Assembly (NCBI GenBank): GCA_022841525.1
Contig: JALHRI010000004.1
Coordinates: 30,166-68,935 of the forward strand
Source: Alphaproteobacteria bacterium
Lineage (GTDB): Bacteria > Pseudomonadota > Alphaproteobacteria > Rickettsiales > UBA3002
Direction of reading: 5' to 3'
Length of the DNA stretch: 38,770 bases
Part shown: piece by piece, positions 9,496 through 19,143 of the stretch
Numbering within the stretch: position 1 is the stretch's first letter
Layout: every line of letters begins with the position of its first letter
Translations under genes and position numbers: made by a program
The notes under the pieces: generated by a model
Database searches by the model: none
Seen by the model: the letters and a program-made list of their open reading frames with translations, nothing else
Told to the model about the DNA's origin: nothing

Positions 9496-10926
9496 ATGAA
9501 AGTCATTACCCGCTTTGCCCCCTCGCCCACTGGCATGCTGCATATTGGTGGCGCGCGCACGGCGCTGTTTAATTATCTGTTCGCTAAACGTCATGGCGGA
9601 CAGTTTTTGCTGCGCATTGAAGATACGGATGCTGCACGCTCCACGCCTGAGGCGAAGCAAGCCATATTGGATGGCATGAAGTGGCTCGGCTTACAGCATG
9701 ATGGCGACATTGTGTATCAAATGGCGCGCAGCCAACGTCATAAAGAAGTCGCCGAAGCGCTGGTGGGTTTAGGCCATGCCTATTATTGCTACTGCACGCC
9801 GCAAGAACTCGCCGATATGCGAGCAGCGGCCGAAGCCAAAGGTGAAGCGTTTCGTTATGATCGCCGTTGGCGCGATGGCGGCACGCCGCCCGCAGGTGTA
9901 CTGCCCAGCATCCGCATCAAAGCACCGCTTAGCGGCGAAGTGATCGTGGCGGACGCCGTGCAGGGCGAGGTACGTTTTGGTACCGAATCTCTTGATGATT
10001 TTGTGATTTTACGCTCCGACGGCACACCCACCTACATGCTCGCGGTTGTCGTCGATGATCACGATATGGGCATCACCCATATTATTCGCGGCGATGACCA
10101 CCTTAATAATGCTGGTCGCCAAAGCATTATCTATCAGGCGATGGGGTGGGATATTCCGCAGTTTGCGCATATTCCCCTCATCCACGGACCCGATGGCGCG
10201 AAACTGAGCAAGCGCCACGGCGCCACCTCGGTGATGGAATATGCGAGCATGGGGTATCTGCCCGAAGCGATGCGCAATTACCTGCTGCGCCTGGGCTGGA
10301 GCCACGGGGATGACGAAATTATTTCTGATCAGCAAGCCGCCGAGTGGTTTAATCTCGAGCATATTGGTCAGTCGCCCTCGCGGCTGGATTTTGATAAATT
10401 AAACCACGTCAACGCCCATTACATCCGCGCACGCAGTGATGAAGACTTGGCGGCACTGCTGCACCCTGTCATGCTGAACGCAGTGAAGCATCTCCCTCAA
10501 TCAGGAGATCCTTCGCTGACGCTCAGGATGACAGATACTATGTCCTTCCTCTCCCGCGCTATTGGCAGCGTGAAAGAGCGTGCCAGCACCCTTCCTCAGC
10601 TTGGGGAAGCGGTGCAGTTTTACCTGCACGCGCCAGAGCGTTATGATGATAAAGCAAAAGCAGCGCTCACTAAAAACGGAGCGCATTTAACCCTCGTGAT
10701 TGAAGCGTTTGAAGCCCTGAGCGAGCCCTGGAACGCCGACTCCATCAAAGCTGAGCTGATGCGCATAGCAGAAGCGAGCGGCAAAAAAATCGGCGAGATC
10801 ATGCCGCCCATCCGCGCCGCGATCGTGGGCAGCATGAGCGGGCCAGATGTGCCCGTAGCCCTCGCCATTTTAGGTAAAGAAGAAACGCTCAAGCGGCTGA
10901 AAAAGGGCGTAGAGCCGAGAGCGTAG
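9496..10926 (+). CDS. gltX: glutamyl-tRNA synthetase (GltX type)
   Basis: The 476-residue class I synthetase charges tRNA-Glu, or possibly tRNA-Gln if this is one of two paralogues. The HIGH-type motif is APSPTGMLHIGGARTALFNY at the N-terminus, and the KMSKS-type motif is AKLSKRHGA at about residue 235-243. The C-terminal anticodon-binding helices end near GVEPRA. ATG 9496 is preceded by AAGGA with 7-base spacing and starts just before the conserved ITRFAPSPTG. The unusual part is about residues 324-346, encoded by a 69-base palindromic repeat (10466-10534) inserted in frame between the segments AHYIRARSDEDLAALL and LSRAIGSVKERA. This is a variable part of the family, so the enzyme is probably functional. 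Confidence 0.95.
   Translation: MKVITRFAPSPTGMLHIGGARTALFNYLFAKRHGGQFLLRIEDTDAARSTPEAKQAILDGMKWLGLQHDGDIVYQMARSQRHKEVAEALVGLGHAYYCYCTPQELADMRAAAEAKGEAFRYDRRWRDGGTPPAGVLPSIRIKAPLSGEVIVADAVQGEVRFGTESLDDFVILRSDGTPTYMLAVVVDDHDMGITHIIRGDDHLNNAGRQSIIYQAMGWDIPQFAHIPLIHGPDGAKLSKRHGATSVMEYASMGYLPEAMRNYLLRLGWSHGDDEIISDQQAAEWFNLEHIGQSPSRLDFDKLNHVNAHYIRARSDEDLAALLHPVMLNAVKHLPQSGDPSLTLRMTDTMSFLSRAIGSVKERASTLPQLGEAVQFYLHAPERYDDKAKAALTKNGAHLTLVIEAFEALSEPWNADSIKAELMRIAEASGKKIGEIMPPIRAAIVGSMSGPDVPVALAILGKEETLKRLKKGVEPRA
10466..10534. repeat. palindromic repeat, copy 1, inside gltX
   Basis: The left arm CTGTCATGCTGAACGCAGTG (continuing to 10495) is matched by a right arm ending GCTCAGGATGACAG. The reverse complement of the right arm equals the left arm with a few differences, giving a roughly 30-base imperfect hairpin stem. 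The element is 69 bases, a multiple of three, and is translated in frame as part of GltX (HPVMLNAVKHLPQ, then SLTLRMTD). The TGTCAT-CTGA / TCAG-ATGACA pattern is that of widespread bacterial palindromic repeats. Copy 2 is at 19072-19143. Confidence 0.85.
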
Positions 10927-19071: not shown

Positions 19072-19143
19072 TGTCACTCTGAACGTTAGTGAAGAGTCTC
19101 ATCTTTGTAAGAGAGATTCTTCGGCTAAAGCCTCAGAATGACA
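19072..19143. repeat. palindromic repeat, copy 2, between convergent genes
   Basis: The left arm TGTCACTCTGAACGTTAGTG continues to 19100 and pairs with the right arm GAGATTCTTCGGCTAAAGCC continuing to TGACA at 19143; the loop is about 12 bases. It is the same family as the element inside gltX. It lies between the convergent PfkB kinase and efp genes, starts five bases after the kinase stop, and may act as a bidirectional terminator or transcript-stabilising hairpin. Confidence 0.85.

Follow-up and report, generated by a model that had tools for sequence, protein, structure and literature searches.

What is the palindrome that is translated in frame inside the glutamate--tRNA ligase gene of this alphaproteobacterium, and how did it come to be part of the protein? 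The window analysed here, meaning the whole stretch of DNA, is 38,770 nucleotides long and comes from a fragmented 2.34-Mb assembly (274 contigs, contamination 5.26%), referred to below as the source genome or G000. We consider it very probable that the element is a non-autonomous mobile head-to-head TGTC REP heterodimer of the CGTC-REP superfamily. It would have been inserted in the linker that joins the stem-contact region of GluRS to its anticodon-binding domain, and retained because it preserves an open reading frame and falls in a loop able to take extra residues. The features on which this reading draws are the following.

9496 to 10926, plus strand: gltX, glutamate--tRNA ligase, 476 aa, the insertion host (TIGR00464, Pfam, AF2 structure match)
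10467 to 10533, no strand assigned: REP heterodimer, in-frame insert (covariance-model match E 7e-17, fold z-scores, translation)
10467 to 10494, plus strand: left REP half, with tag TGTC, stem ATGCT/AGCAT, tandem G.A mismatches, inner stem, GCA loop and tail CTC (sequence; exact half-pattern match; stem perfect)
10495 to 10504, no strand assigned: spacer separating the left and right REP halves (sequence)
10505 to 10533, minus strand: right REP half, with tag TGTC, stem ATCCT/AGGAT and a loop, GTCA, one base longer (sequence; stem perfect)
19072 to 19143, no strand assigned: the window's other copy, in intergenic DNA where convergent ORFs meet with their 3' ends (covariance-model match G000:C4:49236-49309, E 9e-15; ORF map)

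An earlier, sequence-only reading had described a palindrome at 10466-10534. It is present as a core, TGTC...GACA at 10467-10533, with one extra C/G pair, and the letters of the core run TGTCATGCTGAACGCAGTGAAGCATCTC-CCTCAATCAG-GAGATCCTTCGCTGACGCTCAGGATGACA (left half, spacer, right half). The computed fold reaches -41.4 kcal/mol as RNA (z -7.8) and -22.4 kcal/mol as DNA (z -6.0), with 0 of 200 shuffles equally good in either case. An Rfam search of the window returned no family reaching its gathering score.

The host gene was assigned with the TIGR00464 equivalog model, which its product matches with a score of 504 bits (cut-off 290). In Pfam terms, residues 2-303 form the catalytic tRNA-synt_1c domain and residues 347-471 the anticodon-binding Anticodon_2 domain. 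The reading frame stays open through the whole element, and residues 325-346, VMLNAVKHLPQSGDPSLTLRMT in translation, are entirely encoded by it. Measured from the conserved HYIR motif to K(E/P)RA, the GltX linker has 48 residues in the source genome, compared with 38 in G006, 32 in G008, 32 in G011, and 24 in G010 (~68–76% identity). The linkers of these relatives are shorter and unrelated in sequence, and the element residues are missing there, an absence read from protein, with the nearest relatives belonging to other genera at ~71% protein identity. With its 22–23 element residues removed, the source linker comes to ~25 residues and resembles that of G010. The element had been said to add about 23 residues; 22 are indeed encoded by it, but a clean gain of 23 does not hold, since the net gain relative to the relatives is 10–24. 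The nearest named GltX proteins come from assorted Alphaproteobacteria, at 58% or less, and none of the named alphaproteobacterial linkers among those listed contains element-like residues.

An AlphaFold2 model of GltX (mean pLDDT 91.6), which matches solved GluRS structures with E 8e-44, was used to map the segment. The first element residues are predicted to prolong the helix at 315-331, while the remainder forms a low-confidence loop that leads into the helix at 348-362; pLDDT is 60–69 at residues 331-350, the lowest internal stretch. The model thus shows the inserted residues as a helix extension and a surface loop of GluRS, ahead of the anticodon-binding domain. Because a second GluRS-like gene is present in the source genome (G000:C2:57886, 39% identity), the element-bearing gltX is only presumably essential.

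The sequence-only reading had also pointed to a separate intergenic copy at 19072 and taken the element to be mobile. The first point is confirmed and the second supported. The copy at 19072-19143 begins 5 nt past one stop codon and lies 20 nt from the end of the convergent ORF. Across the genome, the 22-nt arm pattern was found in 27 places with up to 2 mismatches and a 27-nt pattern gave 34 matches, while the same patterns read backwards gave 0. Trained on 23 copies, a covariance model identified 29 TGTC-family dimers at E<=1e-9, beyond which weaker matches belong to the TTGCGAG family. The element is therefore dispersed in ~29 copies, and relatives lack its residues in GltX. Neither of the two outcomes that the sequence-only reading had named as refuting it was observed. 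Most of the copies are intergenic, and four are in frame within conserved genes, namely gltX, valS (two copies), and a photolyase gene. The valS of the source genome is split between two contigs that share ~118 bases at their ends, and both parts match valine--tRNA ligase models. Among relatives the TGTC family is patchy: it was found in 8 of 37 genomes, with ~60 matches each in G012 and G017 and few or none in most. Phage and plasmid collections held no record matching the element.

The element had further been described as a multiple of three in length and able to make peptide. Both statements apply to the gltX copy, a 69-nt palindrome that is translated in frame, but not to the family, whose cores are 62–79 nt long and for which coding is incidental. 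In a typical arm, one frame holds the TGA of CTGA. In the right arm of the gltX copy, the extra loop base (GTCA) carries the frame past this usual TGA; the 12-nt loop length of this arm is also found in other, intergenic copies. On average 1.9 of 6 frames are open in a dimer, compared with 54% of frames in random 71-nt stretches of the window, and with fewer open frames than random stretches the family is not built for peptide coding. We consider it likely that the peptide in GltX is neutral or nearly so.

A question that follows from the gltX case is whether synthetase linkers receive such insertions repeatedly. In G007, which belongs to another genus of the same taxonomic family, the same GltX linker carries a different REP dimer, CGTCATCCCGA...TCGGAATGACG, partial copies of which occur elsewhere in that genome. 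In-frame dimers were detected in ValS in 6 of 24 genomes, nine dimers in total and mostly in two linkers: after NKYGKMD (site 1; G000, G002, G007, and G017) and before RFxxLFPADLRP (site 2; G000, G012, and G001). Among the ValS dimers, both subfamily and frame differ. The same detector found none in RecJ (0 of 25 genomes), and its backward control was 0 everywhere. The difference between ValS and RecJ gives a one-sided Fisher p of 0.0096, or ~0.02 without the source genome, for a gene that was chosen because the source genome had matches there. IleS of G001 contributes two in-frame TGTC-family dimers. Outside the synthetases, the hosts are Mfd, PyrB, Lgt, and HtpG in G012, MurD in G017, NadE in G036, and LepA, a thiolase, and a ferredoxin reductase-like protein in G001, with part of these names given from sequence inspection alone. 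The five TGTC-family sites fetched from G001 (L355, L356, L357), the two in IleS and the three non-synthetase hosts just named, were all in frame in conserved genes, whereas source-genome copies are mostly intergenic. Three CGTC-type REP dimers and a CCCTCACCC/PHPTPLPQGEG palindrome lie in frame within a single ValS ORF of G001 (L237).

The excess of REP dimers in tRNA synthetases is only suggestive, because ValS is longer than RecJ, a single control gene was used, and large linker-rich enzymes may tolerate more insertions. It is possible, but in our judgment rather unlikely, that the GltX, ValS, and IleS linkers are recurrent, independently reused landing sites for several unrelated in-frame palindromic families in this order, through target preference or selection beyond tolerance. 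A further proposal is that the insertion is adaptive, with the residues or the strong mRNA hairpin tuning GluRS through tRNA binding or translation, and with selection explaining the repeated synthetase insertions. In its favour are the independent REP dimers that occupy one GltX linker in G000 and G007 and those that, in different genera, sit in two ValS linkers, together with the ValS and RecJ counts and the IleS pair. However, the same sites hold different REP families, frames, and unrelated peptides, so there is no conserved peptide, non-synthetase genes are hosts as well, and ValS was picked because of matches in the source genome. We therefore regard adaptation as improbable. Given that different families, frames, and peptides occur at the same linkers, the simplest view of the peptide is that of a by-product which the enzyme tolerates, and the explanation works with no demonstrated or required advantage for the host.

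The 69-base palindrome keeps its outline in our analysis but not its standing as a single unit, as within-arm covariation defines half repeats of ~28 nt. Each arm forms its own hairpin, with a TGTC tag, a 5-bp stem (e.g. ATGCT/AGCAT), a tandem G.A mismatch, and an inner stem capped by a small loop. Among 32 halves, the pairs 6-24, 7-23, 12-18, and 13-17 are Watson-Crick in 31, 32, 31, and 30, compared with shuffled expectations of 18.6, 13.5, 18.6, and 22.2; the tandem G.A is conserved in 31 and a GNA loop in 24. At the two variable outer-stem positions of the 29 dimers, bases pair within the arm in 114 of 116 cases, while the two arms agree with each other in 26 of 58 (random expectation 0.535). 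The gltX copy itself has ATGCT/AGCAT on the left and ATCCT/AGGAT on the right, each arm perfect internally and mismatched to the other. With pairing inside arms and no agreement between them beyond chance, the element is an inverted REP heterodimer rather than a single palindrome. The argument rests on covariation and not on energy, since a single half is only weakly stable under standard DNA parameters (-1.9 to -3.7 kcal/mol).

If the whole palindrome were the unit, as a cruciform or long hairpin whose arms are copied together and kept alike in the manner of MITE-like terminal inverted repeats, the strong fold of the whole dimer and the inverted outer tags would be accounted for. The contrast between self-pairing and arm-to-arm agreement largely refutes this model, which we consider highly improbable. 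Chance, or ordinary variation of a GltX linker that spans 24–38 residues in the nearest relatives, is refuted by the ~29 copies of the same element and by shuffles and a backward control that yielded none, and can be dismissed with near certainty.

The heterodimer can be compared with a published class. In Di Nocera et al. 2013 (PMC3733652), CGTC-tagged REPs are described as having the tag CGTC or TGTC, a stem of 8–9 bp that opens with AT (or AC), a loop of 4–5 nt, and a short unpaired tail, mostly CCA. They form mainly head-to-head dimers, with heterodimers frequent, and occur chiefly in Alphaproteobacteria without a linked transposase; intragenic dimers encode 20–30 residues in hosts that include tRNA synthetases and photoreactivating enzyme. 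In our data, nearly all of the 32 halves carry TGTC or N-GTC as their tag, 31 have A-T at 5-25, 31 have T-A or C-G at 6-24, and the 29 dimers are head-to-head, with tags outward. The stem consists of 5 bp, two G.A mismatches, and an inner 2–4 bp, with a 3–4-nt loop, such that its fit to the published 8–9 bp depends on how mismatches are counted. The tail is short, CT(C) in the source genome and CC in G017. Relative to the published description, the element shares the tag, stem start, head-to-head heterodimers, alphaproteobacterial host, in-frame dimers of 20–30 aa, and lack of a transposase. Loop and tail are short in both, although the tail here reads CTC and not the usual CCA, and the stem, interrupted by the tandem G.A, does not clearly match the published length. 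We assign it to the CGTC-REP superfamily because it fits in tag, stem start, and dimer form and has no flanked transposase. A second REP family, CGTCATTGCGAG...CAATCCA (CGTC-1-like, with CCA tails), coexists in the source genome (L404, L405, L408, L409).

The sequence-only reading had likened the element to Rickettsia palindromic elements, an apt comparison in that the same paper assigns RPE-4 to CGTC-4 and RPE-6 to CGTC-1, within this superfamily. Like the element, these are dispersed, palindromic, and in frame within genes, the equivalence being taken from the paper's description; RPE-1 is longer and a separate family. The element shares with REPIN/RAYT systems two inverted REP hairpins, a conserved stem mismatch, and non-autonomous dispersal, but it has TGTC in place of the GTAG tag, and no RAYT gene in the source genome is flanked by these repeats. 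Parallel REP insertions are also described in PMC3733652, in Xanthomonas recB and in tRNA synthetases of X. oryzae, E. litoralis, and S. alaskensis. These resemble our case in having REPs at about the same site of a gene in different species and in synthetase hosts; in our genomes, the GltX and ValS linkers of different genera hold REPs of more than one subfamily. Judged by its sequence features, the element is closest to a REP heterodimer and is REPIN-like.

How such a heterodimer would move can be proposed by analogy. Our tentative suggestion, for which we would give somewhat less than even chances, is that the element moves as single-stranded DNA, with each half folded and cut in trans by an HUH tyrosine transposase, as TnpA-REP acts on GTAG REPs. 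The E. coli TnpA-REP recognises a single-stranded REP with its tag and requires a mismatched bulge in the stem (PMC8266576), a feature similar to the conserved tandem G.A mismatch of the element. Gene-breaking insertions would be lost, which would leave copies mainly between genes and, within genes, in frame. No transposase gene flanked by TGTC repeats was found in the source genome. A RAYT was rejected as its mobiliser, as the only Y1 transposase found there (L076) has unrelated GGGACACAAT inverted repeats on its flanks and reaches a RAYT score of 58 against a cut-off of 80. This Y1/REP-associated-type gene, at L076:1300-1860, lies between GGGACACAATnATTTATTGTGTCCC palindromes and resembles the TIR-flanked tyrosine transposases of PMC3733652. 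DUF559 was likewise rejected as mobiliser, since the palindromes that border its domains are of the CTCCCCC...GGGGGAG or CCCTCACCC kind and not TGTC repeats.

The DUF559 domain (PF04480, a Vsr-like nuclease) was itself observed in frame inside IleS in the source genome (L379, G000:C68:596-907) and in G001, G002, G009, G013, and G031 (L375-L400), as well as in G007 and G023, where it was judged from contig position. By inspection, it also lies within DnaE (G017), GltB (G004), Sua5 and TlyA (G002), CCA transferase (G013), and an NTP pyrophosphatase (G031). In the five inserts examined, which measure ~440–520 nt, both ends carry inverted palindromes of the CTCCCCC...GGGGGAG type that are much alike, and by their sequence the inserts resemble an in-frame mobile nuclease element; a literature search found no paper on DUF559 in-frame inserts. 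In IleS of G002 (L400), an N-acetyltransferase-like domain occupies about the DUF559 site of relatives, and IleS carrying a GNAT domain has an NCBIfam model, NF040702.

The gltX case is a checkable example of mobile DNA made into protein within a housekeeping enzyme. With the same linkers holding different REP families in different genera, these genomes offer a natural experiment for telling tolerated insertions from directed or selected ones. The half hairpin as the moving unit, derived from covariation, better defines the search for the family's mobiliser.
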